Below, piece after piece: positions 1-22,696 of a DNA stretch of 64,000 nt. Where the stretch lies: positions 1-64,000 of the forward strand of contig NBLJ01000007.1 of assembly GCA_002084545.1 (NCBI GenBank), written 5' to 3'. The position numbers and the translations under genes are program-made. The notes under the pieces were generated by a model. That model was not told the origin of the DNA. It did no database searches and saw nothing but the letters and a program-made list of their open reading frames with translations. Source of the DNA: Desulfobacteraceae bacterium 4572_123 (GTDB lineage: Bacteria; Desulfobacterota; Desulfobacteria; Desulfobacterales; 4572-123). Within the stretch, counting starts at the first letter, position 1, and each line of letters begins with the position of its first letter.

Positions 1-3000
1 CGGTTCCGCTGCCGGTTATGGAGAGCCTGAAATACGGTCCGGCCGGAAGATCCAGGATAATGGTTTCATCGTCTGTGTCTATGGCGGGGTCGTGTCCCAG
101 AATAAACGTTTCGTTTATCTGATTATTTGTATTGTTGATGGCAATGCCGATGGCCCCGCTGAAAGAGACAGGGCCTACTTCAAGGGATTGAATATCAACA
201 GATACCTCTCCGGCAAGTCCGTCTCCTGAAATCAGCAGTGCACCGCTTATGTCTTCAATTGTGACAAGATTAGAGTTCCCGTCGTTTAACGACAGGGATG
301 CGCCGGCCACTGCAATCTTGATATCACCGGCTTCATTTTTACCCGGTGTGGCCGGATCATCCGCACCCTTTTCAAATAAAAAGGTTCCGGAAAGAACCTG
401 ACCGAGGATATCCAGATCAATGGTGGCCTCAAAGCGTCTTGCGCCGTAATTTATCGTATGATCGACACTGCCGCCGTTGCCGTCGGGTACGGAAACAATC
501 GTCTCACCGCTGATGTCACTGTATTGTACAACCGCACTGCCGGAAAAGGATACGCCCGGAATACCGAGAATCATGACCTCCCCTTCGGCATACAGGGCAT
601 AGGTGTATGGGCCTGATCCGGACCGGATCAGACCGATGTTGGCGTTGTCCAGGAGTACGCCCCTTGCATCGGGATTGATACTGCCGTCTTCAAGCTTTAC
701 CGGTCCCTGGCCCATGAAAACGGAGATTCCGCTGCCGGAAAAAGAGCCTCCGGTAATATTGATTTCATCGCCTTCAATGATGACGAAATCACCGATGTTG
801 ATGGAGGCTCCGGAAATGATAAAGTTAAAAAAGGTGGAAGGATCAGCGATCTCACCGTCACCAAATTCTATTGTAAGGCTCTGACCGTTAAGCTGAATCT
901 CCTCATAAACCGTATGCGATGTAGAATTCAGGCGCAGTTTCACGCCGGCACCTGCATCACAGCCGCCGATGCCAAGCGATAGCTGTCCGGAAACAAACCC
1001 GGCAATACCGTCGGAATAAATGACAAAAGCGCCCTGGCCCTGACTTATTTCAAAATTATCTCCATCAGAATAATCAAAAGAGACATCCGACATGGCAAAG
1101 CGGGTTATTTTTACATTATCAGCATTTGTGGTCTGGTCAAAAAAGAAATTGCCGCTGAAGGAGACACCGCCCACGGACAATGTCAATTCCACCACCGATA
1201 CCCTGACAAAGGAACCGCCCGCCAGATCGTTTTCATCTATATCGCCGTCATCATCCAGGTCAAAGGGAAGCGGTCTTGTGTTGATTTCAACCCTGGTTAT
1301 GCCGCCGCTCACGGTTACTCCGGGAATATTCAATATATCAAGTGTAACATCAAAACTTGCCGCAATCCCGAGGCTGTCAATAACAAAAACAGCGGAACTG
1401 CTGGTTACAAGGACAAAAGGATCTGAATCAGAACCTAATTTGAGTTCAAAATCGGTCACCCGGAGAGTGAGCCTGGTTCCTTGAGGCGTATCTTCTATTT
1501 CAATGGCAAGGCTTTCACAAACGATTGACTGCCCGGCAATATCAATATCAATATTCGTACCTTCGATGAAAAAACCATCTTCGATCAAAATTTCATCAAT
1601 AGTTTTTTCACTGCCCGTGGTGTTTATTTTCACCTGGAAACTGCCGTCAAAATCGACCCCCGGAACATTGACGCCCACGCTTCCGGAAAGATAACCGTAC
1701 AGGCCCTTTTCAACGACCACACCGTTTTCAAATATCTTTATGATTTCAAAAGCACCCTGGCCGTTTGTGACCTGTATTATACTGTTATCCCCTTCACCAA
1801 CCTTGAGTTCGACATCGGCAAAAGAGACCCTCACTGCCGTGGAAAGACCGGATGAAGTGCTCTGCTCAAAAACAAAACCGCCGGTGAGCAGAACCCCGCC
1901 CACTGAAAGCACAATACTGTCGCCTGCAACCCTCACATATGGACCGGCCGGCAGGTCCAGCGTTTCTTCAACGTCGCCTGTAATAAAAGTTTCATTAACA
2001 ATATGCCCGGTGGTGTTTATTTCCACGTCAAGGATTCCGCTGACAACGATACCAGGGATATTTAAAGATGCACTGCAGCCGAGGCTGCCTGCAATTCCAG
2101 TGCTGTCTATCACGAAATTGCCATGGCCGCTGCCCACCGTTAAAATGCCGCTGCCAATGTTCATGGCAACCTGGCCTGCGGAAATTTTGACAACCTTTTC
2201 ACCGCTGTCCCGGGTGGACTGCTCAAATGCAAAATTTCCACTCAGAGTTTGACCGAAAACGGAAAGGAGCACACTGTCACCGGCGATCAAAAGGTAAGGC
2301 CCGGCATCGAGTTCAAGTGTCAAAGTGCCGGATCCTGCCTGTATGATTTCCGATACCGCGGCATCGGTTGTATTGATCTTGAGTGTGAAATCACCGCTGA
2401 AGGATACATCGTCTCCTGCATCTACACTGACACCGGCAGAAAGAGTTCCGGCCGCACCGGCTCCGGTAAAAACAAAGAAGCCTTGCCCATCAGTCACGGA
2501 AACGATGCCGTCGGCAAGGGAGATCTCCACATCCGATGCGGCAACGCGCACTACTGCCTGCCCGTCTGCACCGGTAACCTGTTCGATGACAAAATTGCCT
2601 TCAAGGGTCTGACCCAGGAGTGAAAGGGATGCCCGAGTGGTGTCATCCACCCCGGTTACTGCAACTTTGAAATAAGGACCTGCCAGAAGAGCTGCAGGTT
2701 CGGCATCAGGTAAAAGCTGGATATCCCCGGCAGCAGCGGTGGTGTTCACCAGCACAGTAAAACGGCCGGATAAGGATATCCCGGATAAATTTACGGCAAG
2801 GTCCGTGGAGAGCCCGCCCATGAGCCCGGCACTGGATATTTCAAAAAACCCGTATCCATTTGAAAGGCTGATGACGGGCGTAGTGCCCCCAAGGGAGATG
2901 GCAACGTTTTCCGCACGGGCACGCACAAGTGTATCGGCGTTTTCCGTGACCTGTTCAAAGACAAAATCACCTGTCAATGTCTGGCCGGATATGGACAGGC

Positions 3001-6000
3001 TGACATCTGTCCCGGCAAGGCGCACATAGGGTCCGGCGGGAAGTTCAAGGGCCACGGGTATGGAACCGGCCATGATGGTTTCATGGACATCTACACCGGT
3101 TGTGTTGATCTGCAGGTTAAGGGTTCCGGAAACTGCAACATCCGGGATATGAACGGCAACACTGCCTGAAAGCTCTCCTGCCAGGCCCGCGTCTGTTATA
3201 AACAGGGCACCGGTTCCATGAGTAACTGTGACCAGATCATCTGAGCCGTTTTTCAGGGAGAGCGTCACGTTGGCAGCGGCAATCTTTACAATTTTTACAG
3301 GCTCGGGATCCGATGTAACCGTCTGTTCAAATGAAAAATCTCCGGAAAGACTCTGGCCAAATACCTCAAGCTGCAGGCCGGTCCCCTCAAATCTCAGGTA
3401 GGGTCCAGAGGGCAGGATTAATTCAAGAACATTTGAATCTACAAGGAACTGCTCATGAACGGCAAAGGTGGAAGTATTTACGGCGAGACTGAGATTACCG
3501 GCAAAGTTGATGCCCCCCGGGATTTCCATGGTGACCGTGCCTTCGAGTCTGCCGGCAAGGCCTGAATCGCTGATGACAAACATACCCTGTGCCTCTGTGA
3601 GGCTGAGGATATCATTTGATCCTGCTGTCAGGGAAAAGCTCACATTGTCCGCCGCCAGTTTCACGATGGATCCGCCGGCGGGCGATGTCAACTGCTCAAA
3701 GGCAAAATCACCGCTGAGCGTCTGCCCCATAAGTTCAAGGCTGACATCCTGACCTGCAATCCTCATAAACGGCCCGGCACGAATATCCATGACAAGCTGT
3801 TCTTCTCCGAATACAAATATCTGGTTCACCGCTGCATGGGTCGTATTGATTTCAAGGGCAAATGTACCCGCAAAATCCACACCGGGAATATTCTCGGTAA
3901 TGGCTGCCGATACGCTGCCGGCAATGCCGCTTCCCGTAAAAATAAAGGACCCGCTGCCCTGGGTGATACTGACAAGATCGGTTGATCCGTCACCCATGGA
4001 CATACTGACATCATTTGCAGCCACGCGAAGTGTGCCGGCCATATCGCCACTTGTTATTTTATCAAAGGAAAAGTCACCGGCAAGACTCTGACCGAAAAGG
4101 CAAAGTTCGGTATCGGCTACCTGCAGGCTAAGCACCTGGTCGCCGGAATCAAAGGTAACCGGGACGCCCTCGTCATTTGAACCCGGAATGGAAAGTGTTT
4201 CATTTATTGCCGTGCCGGTTGTATTGACCCTGACAGAGGCTGTTCCGCTGATGGTGATACCGTCAATACCGATAAGCGCAACGCTGCCCGTGGCATATAA
4301 TGCAAAGGTATCTCCCTGGGCCTGTGTAATTTTTATCAACCCTATTTTTGCATCGGAAAGAAGAACGCCCGAGGCAAGGGGATTAATATCTCCGTTATCC
4401 AGTTTTGCAGGCCCGCTGCCCATGAATATCATCAGTTCATCACCGGCAAAAACAAGCCTGTTGCCGTTTTCCACAAAACTGATATTGCCCTCGATTGAAA
4501 TAAAATCGGCAATATTCAAGGAAAGGTCTGAAATGGAAAAGGAAAAAATGTCGCCTTCGGATTCTCCAAAACGGATCACAATGGATCGGCCGTTAATATC
4601 TATGGTTTCATCAACGGCCCCGCCGGTTTTATTGACACGCAGGATAATATTTCCACTGGCATCGGCTACGCCTGCATCAAGGGATGCCGAGCCGGAAACG
4701 ACACCTGCGACACCTGCCGAAGATACGACAAATCCGCCTTCACCGTCGGTGAGACTCTGGTCTCCGATGGCCACTGTTACATCCGATACGGCCATCCGGG
4801 TAATTTTATCATCATTTTCATCCAGGCGCTGATCAAAATAGAAATTCCCTGAAATTGCAGGAGAACCGGCCCCGATGGTTATTTGCGCGCCGATGATGGC
4901 CACCCTGACAAATGATCCCGCGGCAAGATTCAGTGTGATGGTTTCACTGCCGATTTGAAATGTCTCGTTGACAGGGGCCGGGGTTGTATTGATTTCAAAG
5001 GAGACCGTTCCGCCGCTGATTGATACGCCCGGCACATTAAATACGGGATCTATTGAAAATCCGGCGGCCACTCCGGAACTGCTGATGATCATCGCACCGC
5101 TGCCGCCGGTTATGGCGACAAACGGACTGGCAGGATCGCCGAGAGTTAAATTAAGCGCCGATGCCCCCAGTCTGACAACGCGCTCTCCTCCTGCAGTGGT
5201 GATGGATTCAAAGGTAAAATTGCCGCCAAGGCTCTGACCGGCGATCTCCAGTGATACGCCAACGCCTTCTATCCTGACAAATTTATCCGCCGAAACCGTA
5301 TCGATCTCAAGGGCAAAGGTACCGGAAAAACTCAAATCCGGGATATTGGCGCTCAGTTCGGCACCTGCAATCTCCCCTGTTACACCGGCACTGCTTATGG
5401 AAAGATTGCCGGATGCAATGGCTGCGCTGATAAAATCGGTGGTCCCGTCACCAAATCCGACATATGCGTTGGAAAGAGCCAGTTCGATGACATCCCCGTT
5501 TTTTATAAAAGCGAAATCACCGCTGATGGTCTGACCGAGAATACTGATACTGACATCTTCTCCTGAAATTTTCAGATATGGCCCGACAGGAAGATTTAAA
5601 TAGATCGAACTGTCACCTGCGGTAAACAGTTCATTCACGGCAGCAGTTGTCTGGTTGATCTGCAGAGAAAATATTCCGCTTACATCAATTCCAGGGATTG
5701 TAATTGTAACAATACCGCTGATCTCACCGGCAAGGCCTTCGGGTGTCAGCAGGAAGCTGCCCTGCCCGTTTGACAGCGAAACAAGATCGGTTGACCCGTC
5801 ACTCAGAGCAAAGCTTATATTTTCAGCCGCCACCCGGACAAGCTGTTCACCGGTATCATTGATAACGCTTTCAAATGCAAAATCGCCGTGGATTGCCTGA
5901 TCGAAAATCACCAGGTCAAAGTCAACGGCCTCAAGGCGTATGTAGGGGCCGCCCGAAAGATCGAGTACCACACTTCGGCTGCCGGCAGTCATCGTTTCCA

Positions 6001-8543
6001 GCACAGGGCTGTCCGTAGTATTGACGGCAAGCTGGATATCGGATCCAAAATCAATCCCGCTCACGTTGCTCAACGATATGGAACCGCTCAAACGGCCGGC
6101 AATGCCCGATCCGGTTATGATAAAAATTCCATCGCACCGGGCCCGAACACCAAAGTCATCGCTTTCATCGGCTGTATTTTGATCATCACCGATAAAAATT
6201 TCAACATCCATGGCACCAACGCGAATGATTGAACCGCCGCCGTCCGCAGCGGCCATTTCAAAAATAAAACTGCCTGAAAGTGTCTGGCCCAGAATATCAA
6301 GCTCGATATCGGTCCCTGTAATTCTTAAAAAGGGCCCGGCAGCAAGGGTGACATCAACATCATTGCCGGTTGTAAAAGTGACCTCGGAGCCTGTGGTATT
6401 AATACCAATCCCCATGGCACCCTGGAACTCGACACCGGGAATATCAGCTGCGACAAAAGCACTGAGCACTCCGGTCAGGCCGTCGCTTGTATATATAAAG
6501 GTGCCCTGGCCATCGGTGACATCCAGAGAACTGCCTCCGGCCTGGCCCAGGGAGAGCGAGACACTGTCAGCACTTATTTCAATAACCCGGCTGTCGTCTT
6601 CATTGCCCGGCGTACCATCGGGGTCAAGGGTCAGCACCCCGAAGCCGAAATTACCGGTGAGGGTCTGGCCCAGCACCGTCAGTTCCATGTTGGTTGCCTG
6701 AAAGCTTTTGACCAGATCACCGGTGCTGAAAAAGACAGCAACATCACTGTCGGTTCCCGGAATTTCAAGAAGCTCATCCACAGCCAGGCCCGAGTTGTTG
6801 ATCCGAACCCTTGCCGTGCCTGAAATCGTGATGCCGTCAACGCCGATTATGGCCACTGTTCCCGTTGCATAAAGTGCAAACCGGCTTTCCGAATAGTTGA
6901 TCATCCCCACGGCGGCATCGAAAAGAAGGACACCGGCAGCAGCCGGGTTTATCTCCCCGCCGTTCAGCCGGGCAGGTCCCTGGCCTATGAAAATCTCAAG
7001 GCCAAAGCCTGCAAACCACTGGTAATCGCTTGCCGATGTATAGCTGAAACTGCCTTCGACGGAAATAAAATCAGCAATTCTAAGGCTCATATCAGCGCCG
7101 AAGATCTGGAAAAAAGGCGTTATGCCGCCCGCACTGCCGGAGGCCGTTTCGTTTTCACCGAAACCGACATGAATTAAACTCCCGTCAATTTCAACGTTTA
7201 CGTCCACCGCTGACAGGGTTGAATTAATTCGAAGGCCCAGACTGCCGCCGACACCGAAGTCATCTCCTGCGGCAATTGAAATTTCTCCTGAAATAATGCC
7301 GGCAATACCGCCGGGTGTAACCACAAAAGCACCGTCGGCATTTTTAACGCCGTTACCGTCAAAGGTGAATGAACCGTCAAGGACCGCCAGTGTAGTGACT
7401 GTTTCCAGCGTCCCTGCCCCGTTGTCTGTTGTCTGCTGCTCAAAGCCGAAGGTACCGGTGAGTGCCAGGGCATCGGCCTCGCCGATATTTACCGCAACAT
7501 TTTTACCCACTACCTTTATATAAGGACCGGCAGGCAGGTCCAGCAGGATATCGTCTGTACCTGGAAGCGAAAAGGATTCACTCACCGCAGCCGCACTGGT
7601 ATTGATTTCAACATCAAAGGATGCATCTGTCGTAAGACCGGTGATGCTGATATAAAAATCTCCCCCGATCATGCCGGCGATTCCGGTTTCCATGATCACA
7701 AGGGCTCCATGGGCGTTGGTGATGCCCACTGAATCCGACGCAAGGGAGACGCTGACCCCTGTTGCAGCCACACGGACGATCTTTTGATTATCGCCGGCGG
7801 TCAGTCCTTCAATCACAAAAACACCCTTTAAGGTCTGGCCGGCGATGGTCAGGACTGCAAGATCATTTTCATCTGCGCTGATTTCACCGCCTGCAATCCT
7901 GAAGTATTGAGCGGCCGTATCGATTTCAGCATTAAATATCCCGGCAAATTCGATGCCGGGCAGATCGACCTCTATTTGCGCCTGGGTCAACGTTCCGGCA
8001 ATACCGCTGCTGCTCATGGCAAGACTGCCCGATTCGATGGTGACACTTACAAAATCTTTTGTGCCGTCGCCAAGACCTATGTGCGCGTCACTGATGTGAA
8101 TCTCAACATCACTGCCGTTTTTAACAATGGAAAAATTCCCGCCGATGGTCTGGCCGAGCATTTCCAGCTTGACATTCTCCCCGCCGAACCGAGATGTGCC
8201 CGCGGCCAGATCCAGGGTCTTTGTGATATTGCCCACGGTGATCCCACGCAGAACAGCATCGGAGAAAGTGTTCTTCTGCATCCCGAGATCACCGGATAAA
8301 GTCACGCCGTCGATACCCACAACAGACGCCAGCCCCCCGGCCTCAAATGCATATCCGCCTGGAGCGATAAGCACCATGAGCTCGGCACCGGAAACACGGA
8401 CGCCGATTTCCTCACTGTCACTGCCCACAAAAAGATCCACCCCTGCAGCGGCAATCAGTATCTGTGTCGGGCCATCAGGTGATGTTGTCTTTTCAACGGC
8501 AAAACTGCCGGAAAGGTTCCCAAGGGGGGTTTCAAGGGTTATA
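1..8543 (-). CDS. Giant repeat protein, shifted-frame continuation (partial, runs off left edge)
   Basis: This is the downstream part of the giant repeat gene, read one frame away from the upstream part. I checked the frame at four places (codons starting at 2, 4631, 7223 and 8543 on the plus scale) and all agree, so one open frame of about 2,850 codons spans the region. It encodes the same ~120-residue beta-rich unit as the upstream part: a GPYxRV-like strand, a GQTLSGxFxFEQ strand, a GxGxFVIxxxGIAG strand and a closing VxINTT strand. There is no start of its own near 8543, only the frame break. The stop codon and any C-terminal secretion signal lie beyond position 1. If the frame break is an assembly error, this is simply the second half of one protein of more than 6,300 residues. 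If it is real, this half is untranslated or made only by frameshifting. Membership in the same gene is close to certain; function as an adhesin is inferred. Confidence 0.85.
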
Positions 8544-11500
8544 TCATCCGCCCCCGCCTTTATCCACGGTCTCATTATCATCACCTGCAAAAAACTCGAT
8601 GCCGGTGCCACCGGCAATAATTTCATTGGTTACGCTGTTCTTTTCAAAATAAAGTGATCCGGTCAGGTCTGCCACGGGGGTGGCCAAAGTAATTAAATCG
8701 CCCGAAAAACAGAGGAGATCGGTATCATCAGGCCCGAAATCAAGAACATGGTCCGTTCCATTGATATTGATCACCTGATGGACTTCATTGCCTGTGGTAT
8801 TGGCACGCATGGACAGGGAGCCGCCAAGGGAGAGGATGCCTTCAAGCCCGGTAAGCGCCACATCCCCGGATGCATCCGCCGCAAATGTAGAGTTGTCGTA
8901 AATCACCATCAGTAAAGAGGCGTCGCTTAATGAAATTCCCACCGAACCGGGTACACCGAGAAAAGTGTCCACATTAATGGCGCCGATCTTGATAACAGGG
9001 TCTGAAGGGCCGGTGGCATCGGATTTTTCAAAGAAAAAATCCCCCTGGATGGATACAAAATCCTCTATTTCTAGGTCTGCAAAACCGGACATGCGAATAA
9101 AACTGCCGGCTGCGTCAAATGTCAACGGTATGCCCGAGACTGTTTCATTGACACTGATACCGGTGTTGAACTCCAGATCAAGGCCGGCACTCATGACCAG
9201 ATCGTCAATGCCCGAAAGGTCCGCAACCCCGGCTGCCCTTCCGGCCATGCCGTCCCGGGTCAGGATAAAGGCGCCAAACCCGCCTGCAAGATCCAGGTGT
9301 ACATTTTCACTCCCGATGGAAAAAGTCACATCAGAGGCAGTAAAAATCATCGCTGTGCCTGATTGTTTAAAGACAAAGCTGCCCGTGAAAGTCTGGTCAA
9401 AAATAGTCAGATCGACCCCGGCAGCTTCCACGCGGATAAAAGGACCGGCGGAAACATCAACCACGAGCACCTCTGCCCCGGAATTTTGAATCGTTTCGTA
9501 GACAGCAATATGGGTGGTGTTTACTGCAAGCGTTATATCTGCCGCCATGTTGACCGCACCGGGAATATCGATGGTTGTATGAGCGGACACCTTTCCCGCA
9601 AGGCCCGTGGAAGTCAGTAAAAATACACCATTTATACCGGTGATTTCAGCAAGGGGGTCGGGGTCGTCTCCGTCGGTGAAAAGAATATTTCCGGAGGTAA
9701 CAGCCACGGTGACCGTCTGGGTGTCGTCATCGGTGCCGGCCTGCCGGTCCGGACCGTCTGCTCTCTTTTTCTGAAAAATAAAAGCGCCGTCGGTAATCTC
9801 CTGATCGGCAATCCCGAGGGTCAATCCAGTGCCGGAAACCGTTATATCGCTCCCGGAAATATCCAGGCTGATATCAGCGGTGAGGATTATGCCGGTATCC
9901 GGATTTACATGGACGTGAGCCGAGGCCGAACCGGTAAGGCCCGAATCACTGTTCAGGGTAAAACCGCCATGGACCTGAGTCACCGAGACCAGTTCGGTTG
10001 TACCGTCACCCAGCAAGAAGGCCACGTTATCAAAGGCCACATCTATCATTGCCTGGGTTCCTGAACTCACGTCAAAATCAAAATCACCTTCAAGGGTCTG
10101 GCTGGCCACATGAAGTTCCACCCCCGTGCCTGAAATACTGAAAAAGTTGGTTTCTTCATCTGAAAATTTTATCGATACCGTGTCGGTCCCCATCAGGAAA
10201 GTCTGATCCACAGCGCCATCGGTGGTATTCATGTCGAGGCGGAAGGCTCCCGAAAAATCAACATCAGGAACGTTGAAGGCAACCGAGGCGCCAAGGGTTC
10301 CGGCAAGCCCGGTACTGCTTATAACAAAAAATCCTTGACCGTCCGAGAGGGTTAAATACTCACTGTCTGCCGATCCAAAGCCGATCCTGACATTGGATGC
10401 GGCAGCGACTACGGTCTCTCCTGCCTTTTCAACGGCAAAATCACCGGTCAGGGTCTGCCCGTAAACCGTAAGTTCCACATCCCTGCCGTCAATACGGAAA
10501 TAGCTTCCCCCGGGCAGATCAAAATCAAAGTTAATGGTTTCACCGTTGACTTCAATGGCCCCTGTCTTTGCTACCGGAACAGGCATGGTGTTGACTGAAA
10601 CGGCCAGGCCCGCTCCGAAAGCGACATCAGCAGAAGCGTTGATTTCAATTCCGGCCTGCATGGTTCCCGCCAGCCCCTGGCTGTTAATTACAAAACAGCC
10701 GAACTGGCCTTCTCCCTGGGCAATGCTGACCGCATCTCCAAGATTAAGTTCCACACCGGAAAAACAGACCGTGAGCAATTTTTCACCATCTTCCGCCGTC
10801 ACCTGATCCAGAGAAAAAAAGCCGCTGAGGATCTGGCCGAGAACAATCAATTCAAGGTCGCCGGAAAAACTCATATCGCCGTCACTTACCGTGACGGGAT
10901 CACCGCCTGTCGTAAAGGTATAATCAAAACCGGTATTATTGAATCGAACCGATGCCGAGCCTGAAAGCTGCGCATCGGACACCCCGAGCAGTTCCACATC
11001 ACCTTCGGCATAAAGGGCGTATGAAGAACCGCTTTGAAAAATTTCCACAGATCCGTTGTCCATCAAAAAACCGCTGGCCGCAGCACTGGTTTCCCACAGT
11101 TCGGGATCATCACCTGTTTTGACCTTGGCAGGTCCTTTGCCCATGAAGATGCTCAGCCCGGTGCCGGAAAAAACTCCGTTGCCGCCAAAGGAGATCTCAT
11201 CTCCCTCTATGGTGACAAAACCGCCTATATTAAGGACAAGATCCGCACCGAAAAACATGAAATAAGGGCCGGTATCGCCGGCAGTTTCGGCAGCACTGAA
11301 ACTGATGACAATTTCACGGCCGTCCAGAATAATGGTTTCATCAACGGATAAACCGGTGGTATTGATCTTGAGTCCGATGCTGCCACCCATATCAAACCCG
11401 CCATCAGCGCTGACACTGACCTCACCTGAAACCGTACCGGCAATTCCGCCGATATCACTGCCGCTACCGGCAACTATGACAAAAGCACCCTCTCCGTTTA

Positions 11501-14500
11501 TAATTCCGTTGCCGTCGTAGGTCAGCGAAATACCGGTCATGGCAATTCTGGTCACGCTTGAACCGTCGGGCCGCTCACTTTGATCAAAACTGAAACTGCC
11601 TGTAAGTTCAGTGCCGTTGATGCCGAGGATCGCGTCGGTAACCACGATCCTTACAAACGGACCTGCGCCAAGGGATAGATCTATGGTTTCACCGGCGACC
11701 TCAAGGGATTCATAAACCGGGACATCCGTGGTGTTCAACTCAATCGACACCCCGGCATCGGCAAGTGATATTCCCGGGACATCAAAATAAGCCGTTGCTG
11801 CAAAACTGCCGGCCAGACCGATGCTGTTGAAAACAAAAACGCCCTGACCACCGGTAACTCCCACATAGTCATTTTCGGTACTGCCAAGAGTCAGGGCAAC
11901 ATCGGATAGGCCTATAAGGACAATGGCTGAATTGTCGGCGGCGGAAAACTGCTCGATGCTGAAATTTCCGGAAAGAGACTGCCCTGCCGCGGACAGGCTC
12001 ACATTACTGCCGCTTACCCGGACATATTTATCCGTGGGCGAGGTGGTATCGATGGCAACGGAAAATACACCTGAAAAAACAACTCCGGGAACCTGGGCTG
12101 TAACCAAAGCCTGGTCAAGAAATCCTGTAATACCGGAACTTTTAATCTCAAGACCGGCGAAATCCGCTGCCACATGGACAAAATCGGAAGTACCGTCCCC
12201 AAGAGAGAGCGTCACCGAATCAGCGGAAAGCGCAACCGTCGATTCACCGCTGTTACCGTCAAATCCGTATTCAAATTCAAAAATTGCGGCATTGAGCCGG
12301 ATACCGAGGATATGAATATGACCGCCGGCAAGTGCCGTCCGCACAAAAAAACCGCCCGGTTCCGCGGCTTCCACCGTCTCACCTGCCAGGGTATGGGCGG
12401 TTTCGGTGGTGTTGAAAAGCAGGGAGACCGTGCCCTCAAGGGTAATGTCACCGCCGAAATCAGGCCCCTGTACAGCGGCATTTACAGCCGCTCCGGCAAT
12501 ACCGTCCGGCGTAAAGATAAATGCAAATTCCGCATCTTCAATACTGATTACACGGGTCAGTCCTGCCTGCAGTATAAAGTCCAGGTTTTCACCGGAGATG
12601 GAAACATCTGCACCGCTCTTTTCAAGGGTAAACCGGTCGGCACTCAGCCTGTTTTCAAACACGGTCAGGCTTCCGGAAGCTATTTCCACCCGGACATAGC
12701 CGGTGGCAGCGGCATCTACTGTAATGGTCTGATCATCTATGACCAATGTCCGGGTCTGCCCGGTTGTGTTGACCAGGAGCGAAACGACACCGTCAAGTGA
12801 AATATTTTCCAGATCCGGTCCTGATACGACGGCATTGATCACACCGCCGGCAATGCCGGTGTCGGTAAATATGAATCCAAAATCAGCATCGTTGATCTCG
12901 ACAATCCGGGTTATGCCGGCCTGCAGTAAAAAGTCCAGATTTTCACCGGAGATTGATACCTCGGCCCCGCTTTTTTGCAGCACAAGGCTATCGGCTGTCA
13001 GGCGGTTGCCAAGAATTTCAAGGGCTGCGGGCTCGTCATCCGACAGGGCCGTTATGCCTAAATAAAAATAGGGACTGTTCGTCCCGGCCGCGGCAACGGT
13101 CAACGATTTTCCGTTTAATTCGAAGGTCTGCACTGTTGTGGTCGTATTAAAGGAGAGCGACAGTTCTCCGGCAAGAGAAATACCCGAAAGTGCAGGACCA
13201 TTAAAATCGGTTATCACAACCCCGCCGGCGATACCGTCATGGGAAAAAATGAATCCGAAGTCGGCCTGCAGGACTTCAACAATCGTCGTTCCACCGGCGG
13301 CAAGGTTGAAACTGAAGCCCTGACCGGTGACCGTCACTTCAGCGCCGCTTTTTTCAAGAACCAGACTCTGGGCCGTAATTGTGTTGTCCAGTATATCCAG
13401 TGTTGCCGGAGCACCTGTTTCGGTATCTTCACTGATTTCCACCCTGAAATAAGGGCTGCCCGTCTCGGCCCCTTCAACGGTGATAGTTTCAGTAGTGATA
13501 TTTTCAAATGACTGGATTGTTGCCGTTGTATTGACAAACAGCGACACCGAACCTTCAAGGGTGATAAAATCAAGATCCGGACCGGTCACATCCGCATTAA
13601 CCAGCACACCGGCAATACCATCGGAGGTAAAGCGGAATCCGAAAGCAGCATCATTTATCTCAATAATCCGGGTGGTGCCTGCCTGCAGGAGAAAATCAAG
13701 GCCCTGCCCCGAAACATCGATCACCGAACCGCTCTTTTCAAACACCAGGTGATCGGCTGTCAACGTGTTGCCCATAATGCCCAGCTCCGCATCAAAAATC
13801 ACAGCCTTGACATAGAAGCTGTCCGCACCGGCACCACTTACTGAAACAACCTGGCCGCCTGCCATGATCTCCCTGGTGGCCTGTGTTGTATTCACAAACA
13901 GATCGGCCCTGCCGCCAAGGGTAATTTCCCCGGCAAAATCAGGCCCAAACATCCGGGCATCGACAACGGCGCCGACTATCCCTTCCGAATTAAGCTCAAA
14001 TGCAAAATCCGCATTAGTGACAGAGAGTATCCGTCTGTTTTCAACCCCGAGCCGGAATGCAAAACTTAAATTGTTTCCTGAAATGCCGACAACGGCTGTA
14101 TCGCTGCTGTTTTCTTCAATCACCAGCTCATCGATGGAAAAGTCAAAGCTGTCCATCACAGTCAGTGTTATACCGGTACCGACAATTCTGACAAACGGTC
14201 CGGCTTCAAGACCCAGGGAAAGCAGGGTATCATCAATTGTTGTTTCCAGGTTTACAGCCAGGCCGGTGCTGTTTAAAGACAGCCTGAAAGTCCCTGCCAG
14301 GGCAGCTTCCGGACCGGCTATGGAAACCCTGGCCCCGCACTCGCCGGCAATACCTTGGGAATCAAGGATAAAAAACCCGCTGGCCTGATCGACAACGACA
14401 AGATTTGATCCGAGGTTAACTTCAACATCATTGAAAACGGCGGTCACAACCGCGTGATTTTCAGATGTAGTCTTCTGCTCTATGAAAAAACTGCCGCTCA

Positions 14501-16750
14501 GGGTCTGATCGCCCACGACAAGTGTTGCCGGGCCGGTTACTTCAATCCTGAAATAGGGGCCTGCGGGAACACTAAGATCAATGGTTTGCCCGTTGACCTC
14601 AAAGTTTTTTACAACAGCCTCACCGGTGCTGTTGACAGCCAGGGCCACATCACCCTGGAAAGAAAGGGAACCGATTGCCAGCCCGGCGCCAAGATCCAGC
14701 TTACCGGCAATGCCGGATTCCGTTATCAAAAGTGCACCGCTGATATCACTCAATGCTGCAAGGTCACCTGATTCATCACCTATATTCATAAAGGCGGCAC
14801 TCACCCCGATCTCTATGGCGCCGTCTCCTCCAGCGGATCTTTCAAAGGAGAACGTGCCTTCCAGCACCTGATCAAGAATGGTAAGAGCAATGCCCCCTTC
14901 AAAACTCAAGGCTCCTGCGATGACTGAAATCGTACGGTCATCGGCCAGAACAACCGACTCGTCACTGCCTGTGTTGTTCACCCGTATAACCGCAGTTCCT
15001 GAAAAGGATACGCCCGGAATTCCCAGCAGCATCACCTGACCTTCGGCATAAAAAACATACTCACCGGCAGCCGGAGTATAAAGTCCGAATGAGGCATCCT
15101 GGAGAAGAATACCGCTGGCACCGGGATTTATGGAGCCGTCATCAAGGACGCCCGGGCCTTCTCCAAGAAATATACTGGCATCTGCTGCAGAAAGCCGGCC
15201 GTCACCTCCGATGCTGAAACTGCCCTCGATGACGACAAAATCGGCGATATTGATTCTGCCGCTGCCGAAGAACTCAAAAAGATCGGTTTCCGAAGAATCA
15301 AAGAAAATGGTATAGATAACGCCGTTAACGTTGATGGTTTCATCAACCGATCCGCCGGTTTTGTTGATTCTCAGCCCCAGAGCCGCATCGACGCCGGCCT
15401 GGCCCCCTTCGACATGCAGATCGCCGGACATGACGCCTGCAATTCCCCTTGCGGTAATAACGATTGCCCCTGCGCCGTTTTCAAGGGTCTGGTCGCCGAT
15501 GGTAACTTCCACCTCAGTGAGTATGATCCGGGTAATGGCGGCACCGTCTGTTTCCCGCTGATCAAAATAAAAATTCCCCTGCAGCAGGCTTTCGCTGTTT
15601 CCGGCAATAGTTGCCGCTGCATTCAAGACAGCCACTCTTACATAGGGTCCTGCAGGGAGTTCAACAAGGTCAGGCGTTTCACCCATGGAAACACTTTCCG
15701 ACCGCGTATTGATCTCAATTAAAACATCTGTTGTATCCAGCTCGAACTGGTCAATCTCAAGGGCAATTGTACCACCCAGCACACCGGAAATGCCGGCATC
15801 ACTGATATTCAAAATACCGGTTGTGACCGCAGCTTCAACAAAATCGGTGTTCCCGTCACCAAGGGTAAGGTCGGCATTTGAAACCCCCAGTGTAATCTGA
15901 TCACCGCTCTTTTCAAACAGGAAAATACCGCCAAGGCTCTGGCCGGCCGCGGTAATGGAGCCTGCCAATTCGACCTTAAGATACTCGCTGCCCGCTTCAG
16001 TCGTATCAAGTTCCAGCTTAAAGCTGCCGGCAAGTGCAATACCTTCGATCCGAGAGGTAAAATTTTCAAGCAGATCCAGATCAATGGCGGCGATAATGCC
16101 GTTTTCGGTTATCTGCATGAAACCGCTGCCTGCAAGACTGACCAGGCTTTTTTCACCGGCGGCAAGTTCAAGTTCATCGATTCGGGTGGTTACGGCAATA
16201 TCAATGCCGTTTTTCTCAAAAATAAAAAGACCGGCTATGGACTGATCAAGGAGCGTCAGCGCCCCGTCTAATTCAACCCGCAAATAAGAATCACCGGTTT
16301 CATTGACAGCCAGGATTTCCGGAAGCGCCTCTCCGCCGATGGCGGTAATTGTTTCACCTGTGGTATTGAGCTTAAGTGTAAAACCGCCGTCCATTGCCAG
16401 ATGATCAAACCCGGTTGTAGAACCCGCGGCGACGGACAGTTCGATAAACGCACCAATACCGCTGGTGTTTATCAGCATTGAACCTGCACCGGTCAATTCA
16501 AACAGACTTATGTCGCCTGCCTTCAGCTCAAGGCTGTCGATATCTGCACCAGCCCTGATAGAGGCGCCGTCTTTTTCGAAAACAAATTTTCCGGCAAACA
16601 GTTGATTAAACGCTGTCAGGGTCCCATCCATCTCAATGAAAAAATATGCATCCCCGGCGTCATTTACCGCAAGCTCTTCCACAAGAGGCGTTCCACCTAT
16701 GTGGGTGACCGTTTCACCGGTGGTATTAATTTTAAGATGAAAAGTTCCGT
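1..16750 (-). repeat. Tandem ~360-bp coding repeats with a higher-order pattern
   Basis: The closing strand of each unit (INTT, VNTT, or variants such as INKTGG, INNSG and IDTT) recurs about every 300-420 bp. Examples on the plus scale are near 2008, 2365, 2728, 3098, 3838, 4208, 4984, 6391, 7590, 9510, 10222, 11355, 11728, 12405, 12765, 13525, 13885, 14628, 15358, 16360 and 16720. This gives roughly 45 units in the window. Units are diverged at DNA level, with no long identical blocks, so the array is old. A distinct module carrying (S/D)INPxAxGxLLxDA followed by an (A/F)LYAxG strand interrupts the array near 15.1, 11.05, 6.9, 4.35 and 0.65 kb, with a divergent copy near 8.9 kb. Confidence 0.85.
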
Positions 16751-18893
16751 CCAGTGAAACCAGATCGATGGTTGAATCCGCAGTCAATGTCAAATCAAAA
16801 ACGGCGGCAATGCCCTTTTCACTGATCTGGATAAAACTGTCTGTGATGGAAAACAGAGCAAGACTTTTAGCCTCATCTCCGGCACCTGTTTTTAAATCCA
16901 GGATAGCGGATGTGATATGAACAAAAATATTCCCATTGTCCAAACCAAAAGAAAAATCCCCCGAGATGGTCTGCCCCAGAATTTCCCAGGAACCGGAAAT
17001 ATCGGCAGACAGTGATTTGCCGGCCAGAAATGAGGCCAGTGCATTTTTCATACCTGGGTCATCCGCGGTACTTACCTGCAGATCATCAGAGGCGTTCACC
17101 ACTTCGAGTACCAGTTTATCAATTTCCAGAACCGGTTTGAGATAGCAGATCAGGGCATGATTCTCGTCATAAATACCAAGTCCCGTGAATTCGGCAAAAT
17201 CACCTGTAACGGAACCATAGGTCAGGATTTCAAACCGCTGTCCGGCTGATGGCTTAAAATCGTTGATAAAAACAATTTCAAGGGTTCCGTCAAGGGAAAC
17301 ACTTCCGCTGACGGCCAGGTTGTCATAACTGTCATCAGGATTGGAACCTTCAGGCCCGGTGGCAGGATTAATACCGCCAATCTCGATAGTCAGTGTGCCT
17401 TCGGCAGTTTGCGTAAATGTGTCATAGGTCTGGTAACCGGGCGAATTGCCGGGGCTGATTACGCCATAATTGATGACACTGCCTTTTACCTGTCCGCTGC
17501 CCGAAAGAATGTCTTCGGATTCAACGACCAATGGTTCATGGGCGGCAAGGGGTGTTTCAGGCGTTAAATGGATTTGTTTTGAAGCGGAATTTTCAGAAAA
17601 TGCAGGGGTGGATGCCGTCGGCATACGATCTGACGGACTATAGAATAAGGTATAACTTTCGAAGAAATCCGGGGGATCAAGCCCGGAAAAGGTAAATTTG
17701 GCGGAATTTACATCATCGGTACTGAAATTTAAAACCATATCCGCCGCACTGAAAGGAACGGCTGAATTAACGGCTTTAAAAAAATCCAGCAAATTTATCA
17801 GATCGGAAACACCCTCAATCCGACCTTCAATACGGACAGCGGAATCTATCTTTGCAAATTGTGCAAAACCGTCACTGCCGATATCCTGCAGTTCAATTGC
17901 GGTAATTCTATCAAGAGCCGAATCATGGGGTCGGATGGAAATAGAAACATCAAAGTGCAGTTCCTTGATAAGGTATTTGAATGCCTGGTCTGATTCATCG
18001 GCATGGGCATCGACAAACAGATGAAGGTCCGCCCCTTTAATAAAAAGCATGTTTTCATTATCAAGGTCGATACCGAACGAAACGGCTAATACGATCCCGG
18101 CAGAGTACCCGACATCTCCCATATCCTCAAGGCGCAAAACACCCTGCTGATTGGCGGAGAGAACCAGTTCAAATAGTACTTCGTGGGTTTCTTGGTTATA
18201 AACTCCTGTTATTTCAATTACTTCAAACTGAATCCCGGCATGGCCGGAATCCTGCAATCCATCTTCAATGGCTGAAACAAGTCCCTGGACATCGGGAGGG
18301 GAAAGGCTGTCGTTAAAATAATCGTAGACCGAGGAATTGATCCGCCCCTCAAATGAATCAAAGAAAAGCGGAACAAATTCTTTGGCCGGATTATGGCTTT
18401 TAGAAAATTCAGACCTGGTAAGAATCTGGTTTTCAAGAAGGTGTCCAAAATCAGCAAGCTCGCCGATTCCGTCGGTGATCGATTCCGACTCATCGGTATT
18501 CAGTATGTAGCTGTCGAAAGGGGCGTTTAAATTGAACCCGGATTCATCCTCCGCAAGATTGTCATCCAAGCCTGTGAGTTCCTCTGAGAAATTTTCAGCA
18601 GGATCGGCATCAGTTATCTCATTTTCAGAAAGTCCTGAAAATATACTGTCTAACTCAGCGTTCGGGTCATACCCGGAAATTTCCTGCTCCCCGGCGCCCT
18701 TATGCAACGCTGCCATGGAAACCTGGATCTCTTCGGCCGCCGCCACACCGATCTCCTGATCGGGCATCTGTTCCCCTGCATCCGGCGCAATAGTTCCCAA
18801 AGCGCCTAGCAGCGGATCAGCGGAAAGCAGGATCCTGGGTTCCAGATTTTCCAGCTCGAAAATATTTTCAGTTTTCGATCTATTCAAGGGCAT
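8544..18893 (-). CDS. Giant LEPR-XLL domain repeat protein (probable surface adhesin), N-terminal part
   Basis: About 3,450 residues in this frame. The chosen start is the ATG at 18893, because it places LEPRILLSAD at residues 17-26, as is usual for LEPR-XLL proteins. A TTG at 18914 gives 7 extra residues, and neither start has a convincing ribosome site. Layout: the LEPR-XLL motif; an acidic Asp/Glu/Ser-rich linker to about residue 120; a non-repetitive region to about 450 that I do not recognise; a segment at about 465-610 resembling autotransporter-associated beta-strand repeats (VISPGNSPG, then a LDGTLEIVF strand); then tandem ~120-residue beta-rich units to the end. Cysteine is almost absent. 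LEPR-XLL is known as an N-terminal motif of very large repetitive, probably exported proteins; the adhesin role is inferred. The frame ends at TGA 8544-8546, directly after a G tract, in mid-repeat, so the stop looks artificial or mutational. The coding resumes in another frame. Confidence 0.88.
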   Translation of the reverse strand: MPLNRSKTENIFELENLEPRILLSADPLLGALGTIAPDAGEQMPDQEIGVAAAEEIQVSMAALHKGAGEQEISGYDPNAELDSIFSGLSENEITDADPAENFSEELTGLDDNLAEDESGFNLNAPFDSYILNTDESESITDGIGELADFGHLLENQILTRSEFSKSHNPAKEFVPLFFDSFEGRINSSVYDYFNDSLSPPDVQGLVSAIEDGLQDSGHAGIQFEVIEITGVYNQETHEVLFELVLSANQQGVLRLEDMGDVGYSAGIVLAVSFGIDLDNENMLFIKGADLHLFVDAHADESDQAFKYLIKELHFDVSISIRPHDSALDRITAIELQDIGSDGFAQFAKIDSAVRIEGRIEGVSDLINLLDFFKAVNSAVPFSAADMVLNFSTDDVNSAKFTFSGLDPPDFFESYTLFYSPSDRMPTASTPAFSENSASKQIHLTPETPLAAHEPLVVESEDILSGSGQVKGSVINYGVISPGNSPGYQTYDTFTQTAEGTLTIEIGGINPATGPEGSNPDDSYDNLAVSGSVSLDGTLEIVFINDFKPSAGQRFEILTYGSVTGDFAEFTGLGIYDENHALICYLKPVLEIDKLVLEVVNASDDLQVSTADDPGMKNALASFLAGKSLSADISGSWEILGQTISGDFSFGLDNGNIFVHITSAILDLKTGAGDEAKSLALFSITDSFIQISEKGIAAVFDLTLTADSTIDLVSLDGTFHLKINTTGETVTHIGGTPLVEELAVNDAGDAYFFIEMDGTLTAFNQLFAGKFVFEKDGASIRAGADIDSLELKAGDISLFELTGAGSMLINTSGIGAFIELSVAAGSTTGFDHLAMDGGFTLKLNTTGETITAIGGEALPEILAVNETGDSYLRVELDGALTLLDQSIAGLFIFEKNGIDIAVTTRIDELELAAGEKSLVSLAGSGFMQITENGIIAAIDLDLLENFTSRIEGIALAGSFKLELDTTEAGSEYLKVELAGSITAAGQSLGGIFLFEKSGDQITLGVSNADLTLGDGNTDFVEAAVTTGILNISDAGISGVLGGTIALEIDQFELDTTDVLIEINTRSESVSMGETPDLVELPAGPYVRVAVLNAAATIAGNSESLLQGNFYFDQRETDGAAITRIILTEVEVTIGDQTLENGAGAIVITARGIAGVMSGDLHVEGGQAGVDAALGLRINKTGGSVDETINVNGVIYTIFFDSSETDLFEFFGSGRINIADFVVIEGSFSIGGDGRLSAADASIFLGEGPGVLDDGSINPGASGILLQDASFGLYTPAAGEYVFYAEGQVMLLGIPGVSFSGTAVIRVNNTGSDESVVLADDRTISVIAGALSFEGGIALTILDQVLEGTFSFERSAGGDGAIEIGVSAAFMNIGDESGDLAALSDISGALLITESGIAGKLDLGAGLAIGSLSFQGDVALAVNSTGEAVVKNFEVNGQTIDLSVPAGPYFRIEVTGPATLVVGDQTLSGSFFIEQKTTSENHAVVTAVFNDVEVNLGSNLVVVDQASGFFILDSQGIAGECGARVSIAGPEAALAGTFRLSLNSTGLAVNLETTIDDTLLSLGLEAGPFVRIVGTGITLTVMDSFDFSIDELVIEENSSDTAVVGISGNNLSFAFRLGVENRRILSVTNADFAFELNSEGIVGAVVDARMFGPDFAGEITLGGRADLFVNTTQATREIMAGGQVVSVSGAGADSFYVKAVIFDAELGIMGNTLTADHLVFEKSGSVIDVSGQGLDFLLQAGTTRIIEINDAAFGFRFTSDGIAGVLVNADVTGPDLDFITLEGSVSLFVNTTATIQSFENITTETITVEGAETGSPYFRVEISEDTETGAPATLDILDNTITAQSLVLEKSGAEVTVTGQGFSFNLAAGGTTIVEVLQADFGFIFSHDGIAGGVVITDFNGPALSGISLAGELSLSFNTTTTVQTFELNGKSLTVAAAGTNSPYFYLGITALSDDEPAALEILGNRLTADSLVLQKSGAEVSISGENLDFLLQAGITRIVEINDADFGFIFTDTGIAGGVINAVVSGPDLENISLDGVVSLLVNTTGQTRTLVIDDQTITVDAAATGYVRVEIASGSLTVFENRLSADRFTLEKSGADVSISGENLDFILQAGLTRVISIEDAEFAFIFTPDGIAGAAVNAAVQGPDFGGDITLEGTVSLLFNTTETAHTLAGETVEAAEPGGFFVRTALAGGHIHILGIRLNAAIFEFEYGFDGNSGESTVALSADSVTLSLGDGTSDFVHVAADFAGLEIKSSGITGFLDQALVTAQVPGVVFSGVFSVAIDTTSPTDKYVRVSGSNVSLSAAGQSLSGNFSIEQFSAADNSAIVLIGLSDVALTLGSTENDYVGVTGGQGVFVFNSIGLAGSFAATAYFDVPGISLADAGVSIELNTTDVPVYESLEVAGETIDLSLGAGPFVRIVVTDAILGINGTELTGSFSFDQSERPDGSSVTRIAMTGISLTYDGNGIINGEGAFVIVAGSGSDIGGIAGTVSGEVSVSADGGFDMGGSIGLKINTTGLSVDETIILDGREIVISFSAAETAGDTGPYFMFFGADLVLNIGGFVTIEGDEISFGGNGVFSGTGLSIFMGKGPAKVKTGDDPELWETSAAASGFLMDNGSVEIFQSGSSYALYAEGDVELLGVSDAQLSGSASVRFNNTGFDYTFTTGGDPVTVSDGDMSFSGDLELIVLGQILSGFFSLDQVTAEDGEKLLTVCFSGVELNLGDAVSIAQGEGQFGCFVINSQGLAGTMQAGIEINASADVAFGAGLAVSVNTMPVPVAKTGAIEVNGETINFDFDLPGGSYFRIDGRDVELTVYGQTLTGDFAVEKAGETVVAAASNVRIGFGSADSEYLTLSDGQGFFVISSTGLAGTLGASVAFNVPDVDFSGAFRLDMNTTDGAVDQTFLMGTDTVSIKFSDEETNFFSISGTGVELHVASQTLEGDFDFDVSSGTQAMIDVAFDNVAFLLGDGTTELVSVTQVHGGFTLNSDSGLTGSASAHVHVNPDTGIILTADISLDISGSDITVSGTGLTLGIADQEITDGAFIFQKKRADGPDRQAGTDDDTQTVTVAVTSGNILFTDGDDPDPLAEITGINGVFLLTSTGLAGKVSAHTTIDIPGAVNMAADITLAVNTTHIAVYETIQNSGAEVLVVDVSAGPFIRVEAAGVDLTIFDQTFTGSFVFKQSGTAMIFTASDVTFSIGSENVHLDLAGGFGAFILTRDGMAGRAAGVADLSGIDDLVMSAGLDLEFNTGISVNETVSGIPLTFDAAGSFIRMSGFADLEIEDFVSIQGDFFFEKSDATGPSDPVIKIGAINVDTFLGVPGSVGISLSDASLLMVIYDNSTFAADASGDVALTGLEGILSLGGSLSMRANTTGNEVHQVININGTDHVLDFGPDDTDLLCFSGDLITLATPVADLTGSLYFEKNSVTNEIIAGGTGIEFFAGDDNETVDKGGGG
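18816..18845 (-). other. LEPR-XLL motif
   Basis: Ten codons reading LEPRILLSAD, followed by P. The motif sits near the N-terminus and marks the family of very large repeat proteins in Gram-negative bacteria. It is preceded by a short basic-then-acidic stretch rather than a classical Sec signal, which fits a non-Sec export route such as type I secretion. That route is inference, since no transporter is in the window. Confidence 0.85.
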
Positions 18894-19131: not shown

Positions 19132-19805
19132 TCACAGCTCCCTAATAAGAGATCTGGCCGTCTTCCAGAGCCCTCTCCTTTCTTCAATTAACTCGCGCAG
19201 TAATCGCACCCTGTTTTCAGTTGACCCGCCATATTCATCCGTCCGATTGTTGGTTTTAGAAGATAAAAAAGGTGAAATCAAATAGTTGTGGGTTGCATAC
19301 ACATAAATGATATCAAAGCCGGCGGTTTTGGCGCGCCTGGCAGCAGCCACATGCCATCTCCGAATTTTTTCTAATCGGATTTCCCCATAATACTGCTTTG
19401 AACCGGGTCATTGAATACGGCCGGTCTGCTGTATGCTGCCAACGGGGCCTCACGCGAATATAAATTCGCAACCTGATGCCCGCCATGCCATAGTTCAACG
19501 CCTGCCAGTGATCCATGTTCATGCACCTTTTCAACCATTAAGGCGTTTGCTTTAATGTCTTCTTCATCCCAGAGACAGGCATGCGGATACGGTATATCTT
19601 CTGAAGTAGGATGGATAGAACAGTATTCCGTATTAACGACACCCCAGCCCCCTTCCGCCTTCATTCCCCGCATCGCAGCGAGTGTATTGGGCATTCTGTA
19701 ACCCATGCCGGTGGCATGAGGCACCTGATAAAATCTGTTTTTTGCTGTGACCGGACCTATTTTTACCGGTTCAAATAATATATCAAAGTAGGGACTGCGA
19801 GTCAT
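19132..19805 (-). pseudogene. Decayed OYE/trimethylamine-dehydrogenase-type flavoprotein gene
   Basis: The chosen start is the ATG at 19805, preceded by AGGGAG. The first 144 residues are the N-terminus of an FMN-binding old-yellow-enzyme barrel (FDILFEPVKIGPVTAKNRF, then an LWHGGHQVAN strand). The frame stops at 19371-19373 just after MGKSD. Dropping one base restores LEKIRRWHVAAARRAKTAGF and then a second family block, RTDEYGGSTENRVRLLREL, which ends at 19132. So there is a one-base deletion in the middle, and the remainder of the barrel and any C-terminal Fe-S and FAD domains are gone: about 225 residues remain of a family usually 600 or more long. It is the last gene of the amine cluster, 83 bases below the first mttB. 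In an intact form it would oxidise a secondary or tertiary methylamine. Loss of function is nearly certain unless the assembly is wrong at several points. Confidence 0.85.
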
Positions 19806-19888
19806 GAAAACTCCCTTGTATTTATTAATGTTATGTACTTTCACCTGTTTTGATATCTTTGACAAATGTGGCGGAACCATCGACATTA

Positions 19889-21319
19889 TCAATCGGAAAG
19901 CACAAGTTTATCGTATTTTTCCAGTATTGTTTTTCCCTGTTTCAAAATTTCCGAATCCAGAGCAGGCACAACATGATTTTCAATTAGGTCTTTGGCTACT
20001 GCTCTCGCTTCCGGGACCATATTGTTGGACAGAGTTGTTTGCATAGCCAGTTTCTTTTTATCCCACAGGGTGAGTTCTTTCTTGAAATTGGCAAAAGTAT
20101 GTTCGTGCTGTAGAAAATCTTTACCGGGGCCCACCTCTTTAACAATATCCAAAGCTACTTTTTCTTCTGTGATTTCTTGATTTTTGAGAAAAGATTGATA
20201 GCAGTCCCATAAGTATGCATCAATCACCAGTTGTTCATAAGAGTTAGTTAACGCATTATTGGTAGATCCCAGTCCAGTGACTAAATCCGTCCCCATAACA
20301 GAAAGCGTTGTAGTAGCGGTTTCGCAGTAAGATTTGGACATACCGATAGCTCCGTCACTTCCTCCAAAGCACCCTGTTTCACAGGGCAGCCGATATCTTC
20401 CGGCCATTTGCGCTGCGGAATTGGAAATAAAAGGGAGTTCCGGCGCACGGTAGTTAACGCCGGCTGTTGTCATTTCCATGGGTGTGGACTCGACGGTATA
20501 TATGTGAGGTGCCCCGGGCGATGCGGTTTGAGTTATTACCAGACTGGCCAGGTTTTCGGTATTATTGTTGGATATCATCCCCGCTACTGTGATCGGTGCT
20601 GAGATCCCCCCCATTGACATGGACATGGAGCTGATTGGAACACCTGCTTTGGCGAATTCAACTTGCGCTTCCACGGCACCTTTTTCAAAGGTGAGAGGTG
20701 CTACAGGGCACACGACGACAGATAAAATCGGCTTTTTTTTCAGATTCTCTTTACCACCTGCCACCAGAGCAGCTAATTCGATCTGCATTAATGCATCTTC
20801 AGCACTCTGTGCAGTAACGCTGGTTACATGTTTCGTCGTATTCTGCAATGTGATCCAGGCTTCATGGGCGCCGTGAGTCATGGTTGGAACATCGGAAAGA
20901 GTGATGGATGTCCAAACGTACCCAACACTTTCCAAAGCATCCGCCAGCCTGATAAATTTGGTCAGGTCCTCTTTTGTGGCGTTCCGTTCTTCTCCGGTTT
21001 CCAGATCAGAAATAAAAACAGCCAATCCGCTGGTTGAGCATTTTGGCGGACCATTGACAGGAAGCGCAATATCATGTCTGGAATCCCGCCCGTAAAGAGT
21101 GAATTGACTGGGCGCGGATTGAAGCGCTTTGTTCACCAATATTTCCGGTATTTTAGCCACCATGCTGTCATAATCCACAACAGCACCCTGTTCTTCCAGC
21201 ATTTTCAGCACTTTTTCACTGTGGATGCAGACACCAATCTCATTTAAACATTTAATACTCATCTCATGGATTAAATCTTCTTCTTTTTGATCCATGGTAA
21301 CCATCTTTGCTTTGGCCAT
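19889..21319 (-). CDS. MttB-family (trimethylamine methyltransferase-like) protein, non-pyrrolysine, copy 1
   Basis: 476 residues, the usual length for the family. Start ATG at 21319 with AGAGG seven bases upstream. MttB-superfamily enzymes take a methyl group from a quaternary or tertiary amine and pass it to a corrinoid protein. Family blocks seen: TSGLAVFISDLETGEERNA at about 95-113, VVVCPVAPLTFEKGA at about 210, and NSAAQMAGRYRLPCETGCFGGSD at about 310. The frame has no in-frame amber codon, so it belongs to the non-pyrrolysine branch that includes glycine betaine, proline betaine and carnitine demethylases, not to true trimethylamine MttB. The substrate cannot be read from the sequence. 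It follows a saccharopine-dehydrogenase-like gene (125-base gap) and precedes the OYE remnant on the same strand. It is clearly diverged from the second copy at 22697. Confidence 0.92.
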   Translation of the reverse strand: MAKAKMVTMDQKEEDLIHEMSIKCLNEIGVCIHSEKVLKMLEEQGAVVDYDSMVAKIPEILVNKALQSAPSQFTLYGRDSRHDIALPVNGPPKCSTSGLAVFISDLETGEERNATKEDLTKFIRLADALESVGYVWTSITLSDVPTMTHGAHEAWITLQNTTKHVTSVTAQSAEDALMQIELAALVAGGKENLKKKPILSVVVCPVAPLTFEKGAVEAQVEFAKAGVPISSMSMSMGGISAPITVAGMISNNNTENLASLVITQTASPGAPHIYTVESTPMEMTTAGVNYRAPELPFISNSAAQMAGRYRLPCETGCFGGSDGAIGMSKSYCETATTTLSVMGTDLVTGLGSTNNALTNSYEQLVIDAYLWDCYQSFLKNQEITEEKVALDIVKEVGPGKDFLQHEHTFANFKKELTLWDKKKLAMQTTLSNNMVPEARAVAKDLIENHVVPALDSEILKQGKTILEKYDKLVLSD

Positions 21320-21444
21320 AATTACCTCTTTAAAAATGCTAATATTGTAGTGTGACTAAATTTAAGGAATGTTTCCTGCCTGGTTTGAAATTCATAACCT
21401 GATGTTTTTTGATAAAAAGCACTTACATATCCTTCTTTATTCTT

Positions 21445-22581: not shown

Positions 22582-22616
22582 ATTTTTCTCCTTTTCCTTT
22601 AAAGATAAGCTTTTGG

Positions 22617-22692
22617 CTTTTAGCAGTTAGCCATTAGCTAAATGAATCCTTTGTCATTTCGAGCTTGAAAGCCAATAGCTAACAGCTAAAAG
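22617..22692. repeat. Imperfect inverted repeat of TTAGC-type intergenic filler
   Basis: Arms at 22617-22639 and 22670-22692 pair over 23 bases with 3 mismatches (left arm begins CTTTTAGCAGTTAGCC, right arm ends AGCTAACAGCTAAAAG). It fills the gap between mttB copy 2 and the saccharopine-dehydrogenase-like gene. It could form a hairpin in the operon transcript. Similar TTAGC-rich dispersed repeats are common in this kind of genome; that it is one of them here is inference. Confidence 0.7.
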
Positions 22693-22696
22693 TTAA

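Follow-up and report, generated by a model that had tools for sequence, protein, structure and literature searches.

RTX repeats are usually a mark of type I secretion, accessory Sec systems dedicate a second SecA-type ATPase (SecA2) to large surface proteins, and PqqD-like domains bind peptide leaders. Among the RTX adhesins with long repeat arrays, MpAFP contains about 120 identical units of 104 residues each (PMC4083281). The LEPR-XLL giants are already known by name (NF012209, LEPR-8K), and the one from Vibrio sp. VB16 has RTX at its C terminus (PMC10868602). Here we describe a LEPR-XLL gene of an uncultured bacterium in the order Desulfobacterales. The DNA analyzed (the window) comprises the first 64,000 bases of contig C68, 86,552 bases long, of a MAG that has 168 contigs and is 88% complete and 7.5% contaminated (G000). 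We conclude, with a probability of roughly two in three, that the gene encodes a LEPR-XLL giant that is exported to the cell surface, likely through a leader-guided SecA/PqqD-M50/HlyD/TolC route.

A giant LEPR-XLL gene at a contig end

A preliminary description of this DNA had placed a single coding unit, still open on the left, across the first 18.9 kb. One protein does occupy that interval on the minus strand, beginning at an ATG at position 18893, but its coding sequence is divided between overlapping frames at 18914-8544 and 8626-2, with a single switch near position 8550 (Table 1). Bridging the break gives a product of 6,304 residues, in agreement with the earlier figure of more than 6,300, and the contig stops while the repeats continue. 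The full-length ortholog described below is one uninterrupted frame. The window starts at position 1 of C68, the end of the assembled contig, so that nothing lies further left, and a search of the other contigs of this MAG with the unit profile and for RTX repeats did not find the missing C terminus. The size of several thousand residues that goes with LEPR-XLL giants is found both here, in a gene that is still open, and in the ortholog.

The N-terminal motif noted earlier, LEPRILLSAD (LEPRILLSADP at 18795-18860), was borne out by the NCBIfam LEPR-8K domain (NF012209), which matched residues 19-39 of the giant above its curated cut-off, and the VISPGNSPG-type segment is likewise present ahead of the unit array. 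A Pfam search of the bridged product returned nothing significant.

Table 1. Features of the giant gene, its upstream neighbor, and the export operon of the same MAG
Feature	Position	Strand	Remarks
Giant CDS, N-terminal part	8544..18893	-	ATG at 18893; open frame from 18914 (TTG)
Giant CDS, continuation in another frame	2..8626	-	Open at contig end
Single frame break of giant CDS	8544..8570	-	Run of five G near 8550
LEPR-XLL motif, proposed N-terminal export leader	18795..18860	-	NF012209, 29.4 bits (cut-off 17)
N-terminal region with YDYF..PP motif	17570..18794	-	Common to G017, G111, and G486; no Pfam family
PGNSPG segment	17019..17549	-	Common to G017 and G486; E 4e-36 and 6e-34, small database
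Array of 47 beta-meander units, ~120 residues each	89..17018	-	Iterated self-profile
Broken gene for an FMN-dependent oxidoreductase; roughly its first third and a fragment in another frame	19150..19892	-	Directly upstream of giant gene; context only
TolC-type channel (OEP), HlyD, GAF-HlyD, M50, SecA paralog			Operon on contig C81 (G000)

Elsewhere in the window, a minus-strand group at 19889-29718, containing two MTTB family (trimethylamine-methyltransferase) genes together with saccharopine-dehydrogenase-like, FAD oxidoreductase, and binding-protein-dependent ABC transporter genes, looks like a cluster for methylated-amine uptake and use. A triosephosphate isomerase (TIM) gene at 47513-47950 (minus strand) has only 145 codons; about 100 residues are missing in frame from the middle of its product, pointing either to a damaged copy or to a deletion introduced during assembly. 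Two open frames, 44246-46627 (minus strand, 793 residues) and 37594-38316 (plus strand, 240 residues), had no Pfam match.

Order and predicted fold of the repeat array

An iterated self-profile detected 47 units, with i-E values from 2e-7 to 3e-36. The units thus have the length and array arrangement first described, about 120 residues each, with 47 rather than about 45 of them visible. Pairwise identity among the 47 averages 27% and reaches 64% at most, and TRF found no tandem repeat at the DNA level across the array. A three-unit block with an insert-rich middle unit (FMGxGPAKL..NPxASGVLL) occurs five times, starting at about residues 1089, 2418, 3796, 4666, and 5900. The array is acidic, with 730 acidic versus 193 basic residues, and contains 9 Cys. 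Profile searches detected the unit on none of the other contigs of this MAG and in 4 of the 116 genomes of the order, this MAG included; among the 395 genomes of the phylum two further genomes matched weakly, and the plasmid collection gave no match.

A full-length ortholog (DYJE01000008.1) was found in G017, a MAG filed as Desulforapulum autotrophicum in the order Desulfobacterales. Its 17,239 residues and 58 units are encoded in one gap-free open frame, it matches the window giant in the N terminus, the PGNSPG segment, and the order of the units, and its C terminus contains 14 RTX stretches (E=6e-70). For 36 of the 47 window units, the best match lies at the corresponding position of the ortholog's array, whereas 20,000 random draws never placed more than 7 on one diagonal. 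These positional matches are 37 to 66% identical, compared with 27% on average within one protein. The array is thus old, and its units have stayed in order since the common ancestor with this distant relative. By the same comparison, the lost C terminus of the window giant most likely carries RTX calcium-binding repeats. The PGNSPG segment and related units are also present in G486. Most of the LEPR giants that we examined have bodies other than the beta-meander unit.

Contig C252 of G111 (L067 and L056-L060) contains, at 12643-116594, a LEPR-XLL open frame 21,117 residues long and, between it and the end of the contig, two more frames of 10,683 and 2,892 residues; if both breaks are assembly errors, the protein would be longer than 34,000 residues. 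G111 has six LEPR-XLL matches. Similar genes adjoin LEPR-XLL giants of the MEPLEPRLLLSAD subtype on contigs C10 of G012 (L102, 324-6045) and C38 of G027 (L110, 2511-7482), and by eye one of these genes is radical SAM-like and one is methyltransferase-like.

AlphaFold2 predicted the structures of three units (mean pLDDT 91.5, pTM 0.83) and six units (mean pLDDT 86.7, pTM 0.65), the six-unit alignment consisting of 12 nonoverlapping rows. Both are confident models of a continuous antiparallel meander. Each unit contributes about eight strands, and six of these are 12 to 16 residues long. The aligned units alternate hydrophobic and polar residues along the strands and have conserved glycines in midstrand. 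Against the PDB, Foldseek reported only local similarity, to outer membrane barrels, LptD, and ApoB100; among the matches listed, the TM score did not exceed 0.29 with the three-unit model or 0.19 with the six-unit model, and against viral models it was at most 0.34. None of the 50 structural matches listed per search was a solved global counterpart of the fold. The models are compatible with an open groove, a folded two-layer sheet, or a tube, all of which are possible shapes for the array. The unit had been described as matching no nameable adhesin repeat, and this view stands. A known repeat family was rejected after Pfam, NCBIfam, PDB profile, and Foldseek searches without a convincing match, and no known extender repeat (Ig-like, cadherin-like, or similar) was recognized by sequence or by global fold.

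Association of LEPR-XLL giants with a SecA/M50/HlyD/TolC operon

A weak HlyD match in this MAG pointed to five consecutive genes on contig C81. The operon is thus present in the same MAG as the giant gene but on a different contig, and the MAG is contaminated. The SecA paralog of the operon has 658 residues with SecA_DEAD, cross-linking, and P-loop domains, and no wing/scaffold domain was reported in it. The SecA paralogs (658 to 675 residues) have conserved ATPase motifs and score below every SecA2 cut-off. A comparison of the paralog with phage records gave generic SecA-like matches. The M50 proteins conserve HExxH, and their core scores 158 to 173 bits against daptide_HExxH (NF041824), for which the cut-off is 300. 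Seven of the eight M50 N termini tested matched PqqD (E values of 2e-5 to 8e-3), one of them over the Pfam cut-off. The copy in this MAG has a HlyD-like tail, and its gene is damaged at the start by a small deletion that shifts the frame. The gene order TolC, HlyD, GAF-HlyD, M50, SecA is common to G000, G017, G486, and G081; the giants of the first three carry the unit and the N terminus, and G081 belongs to the family of G017. A search of the open-access literature found nothing on SecA/M50/HlyD genes in connection with the export of giant proteins.

In 116 genomes of the order, M50 scores were either higher than about 670 bits or lower than 370, and 23 genomes belonged to the high-scoring group. 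LEPR-XLL was found in 17 of the 116 and together with this M50-operon group in 14 (Fisher p=1.1e-9, kinship ignored), leaving 9 genomes with the operon and no detected LEPR motif and 3 with LEPR and no operon. The 17 LEPR genomes are spread over 15 families, so that the association does not come from one clade counted repeatedly. In 8 of the 14 genomes, a LEPR gene and operon genes share a contig and are no more than about 10 kb apart (G012, G014, G040, G069, G088, G104, and G111, and G086 via a TolC-type gene only). A LEPR gene also adjoins operon genes in G486, which lies outside the 116-genome set.

As an independent test, we searched a plasmid collection with the M50 protein alone and took the ten top records. 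In every one, a gene for a LEPR-XLL giant lies upstream of the operon. They come from three Rhizobium plasmids and one each of Mesorhizobium ciceri, Ensifer, Sinorhizobium, Methylosinus, Pseudosulfitobacter, Alisedimentitalea, and Rhodobacteraceae M382; nine are from rhizobia or roseobacter relatives and therefore do not represent ten independent events. The giants are mostly 8,000 to 13,000 residues long, those of R. beringeri and M382 being in pieces. A SapC family gene adjoins the LEPR-XLL giant or sits inside the export operon on the alphaproteobacterial plasmids L149, L154, and L157, and a DUF3467 gene does so on three others, L148, L150, and L155; both are possible further parts of the export system. 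What LEPR giants have in common is the motif at the N terminus, in most cases preceded by a basic stretch, whereas their C termini differ, a pattern that fits an N-terminal leader.

Proposed export route and comparison with known systems

Export of the giant, proposed at the outset on the basis of its size and pattern, is well supported by the RTX C terminus of the ortholog, the acidic, Cys-poor composition, and the link between LEPR giants and the operon. We infer that the operon exports the giant, with the LEPR-XLL motif as leader. The motif would be bound by the PqqD-like domain fused to the M50 intramembrane protease, M50 would cleave it, and the short SecA-like ATPase would push the chain through the HlyD-type adaptors and the TolC-type outer membrane channel. 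The product would then sit at the cell surface as an adhesin or coat, a role suggested by its size, its repeat architecture, and the RTX C terminus of the ortholog; the adhesin role of the window giant is put forward by analogy.

A conventional RTX adhesin exported by classical type I secretion through a C-terminal signal, with the operon linked to LEPR giants for some other reason, is an unlikely account. RTX repeats at the ortholog's C terminus and an LssB-type exporter with an adjacent HlyD in G017 speak for it. Four LEPR carriers (G008, G012, G017, and G111) have the type I pair or its HlyD as well, and together with the RTX repeats this counts against the SecA/M50 route, as do the location of giant gene and operon on different contigs of a contaminated MAG, the damaged M50 gene, and the 9 and 3 genomes that have the operon or LEPR alone. 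LEPR-XLL, however, has no statistical link to type I HlyD, the control for the association above: type I HlyD is over the cut-off in 27 of the 116 genomes, 6 of which are among the 17 with LEPR-XLL (Fisher p=0.22), and in ten LEPR carriers the SecA/M50 operon is present but type I HlyD does not reach the cut-off. The search with type I C-terminal target models reported none on the C terminus of the ortholog, and the C termini of LEPR giants differ from one another. Nor were the nearby type I genes anticipated earlier found among the window genes tested or recognized on the rest of C68. In the 88% of the genome that this MAG is estimated to cover, no type I HlyD or LssB-type exporter passed its cut-off, and the ABC_membrane matches over the cut-off lie in MsbA-like genes adjoining LpxB-like and LptF-like genes. 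Two different LpxB-MsbA-LptF regions occur in the MAG (L079 on C61 and L078 on C158), and the MsbA gene of one of them is broken, in keeping with the contamination estimate. The SecA/M50/HlyD/TolC operon is the better-supported export route.

We regard as still less probable that the array is a long amphipathic beta-sheet serving as a hydrophobic groove or coat for lipids or other hydrophobic ligands rather than as a stalk. The strand alternation, the midstrand glycines, and the weak local similarity to LptD, outer membrane barrels, and ApoB100 are in keeping with such a role, but the alternation is seen in any beta-sandwich, the global TM scores listed do not exceed 0.29, and AsmA, TamB, and VPS13 had no Pfam match and were absent among the 50 structural matches listed per search. 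Equally improbable, in our judgment, is that the giant gene has become a pseudogene and is decaying in this organism. Its frame break, the broken FMN-oxidoreductase gene upstream, and the damaged M50 gene of the operon speak for decay. The giant gene, however, has one break in 18.9 kb and two frames free of internal stops, its units are still 37 to 66% identical to their positional orthologs, and the middle is missing from the essential TIM gene of the window as well, a pattern that points to the quality of the assembly.

Taken beyond this gene, the leader-guided reading holds that LEPR-XLL is the mark of proteins carried by a not yet described secretion system that spans the envelope of Gram-negative bacteria, among which Desulfobacterota and Alphaproteobacteria have it here. 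In such a system a SecA-type motor would take the place of an ABC exporter, a PqqD-M50-HlyD protein would read and cut the leader, and chains of up to more than 10,000 residues would pass through HlyD and TolC to the surface. We consider this generalization somewhat better than an even bet. If true, it would give a function to the orphan LEPR-XLL motif, name the export machine of some of the largest bacterial proteins, and describe a cell exit in which a Sec-type motor works together with a TolC channel. With the beta-meander array, the known architectures of surface proteins would come to include an amphipathic sheet that is continuous and very long.

Compared with the LEPR-XLL giants described before, the window protein has the same N-terminal motif, a length of thousands of residues, and, in its ortholog, an RTX C terminus, but its body differs, the beta-meander unit being unmatched in the libraries searched. 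It resembles the LapA/MpAFP-type RTX adhesins in its long array, its acidic, Cys-poor makeup, and the ortholog's RTX C terminus; its units, however, are divergent with their order kept rather than near-identical and have no Ig-like fold match, and LEPR giants have no link to classical type I genes. The operon shares HlyD-type adaptors and a TolC-type channel with classical type I secretion, but a SecA-like ATPase and an M50 protease stand in place of the ABC exporter, and its proposed cargo shares the N terminus rather than the C terminus. Like accessory Sec, it has a second SecA-type ATPase, although this paralog falls below the cut-offs, is joined to HlyD and TolC parts, and occurs in Gram-negative hosts. 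With the PqqD/M50 peptide maturation modules (daptide_HExxH), it has in common an M50 core and a PqqD-like domain, and it differs from them in the HlyD-like tail of the M50 copy tested and in its link to giants instead of small peptides.
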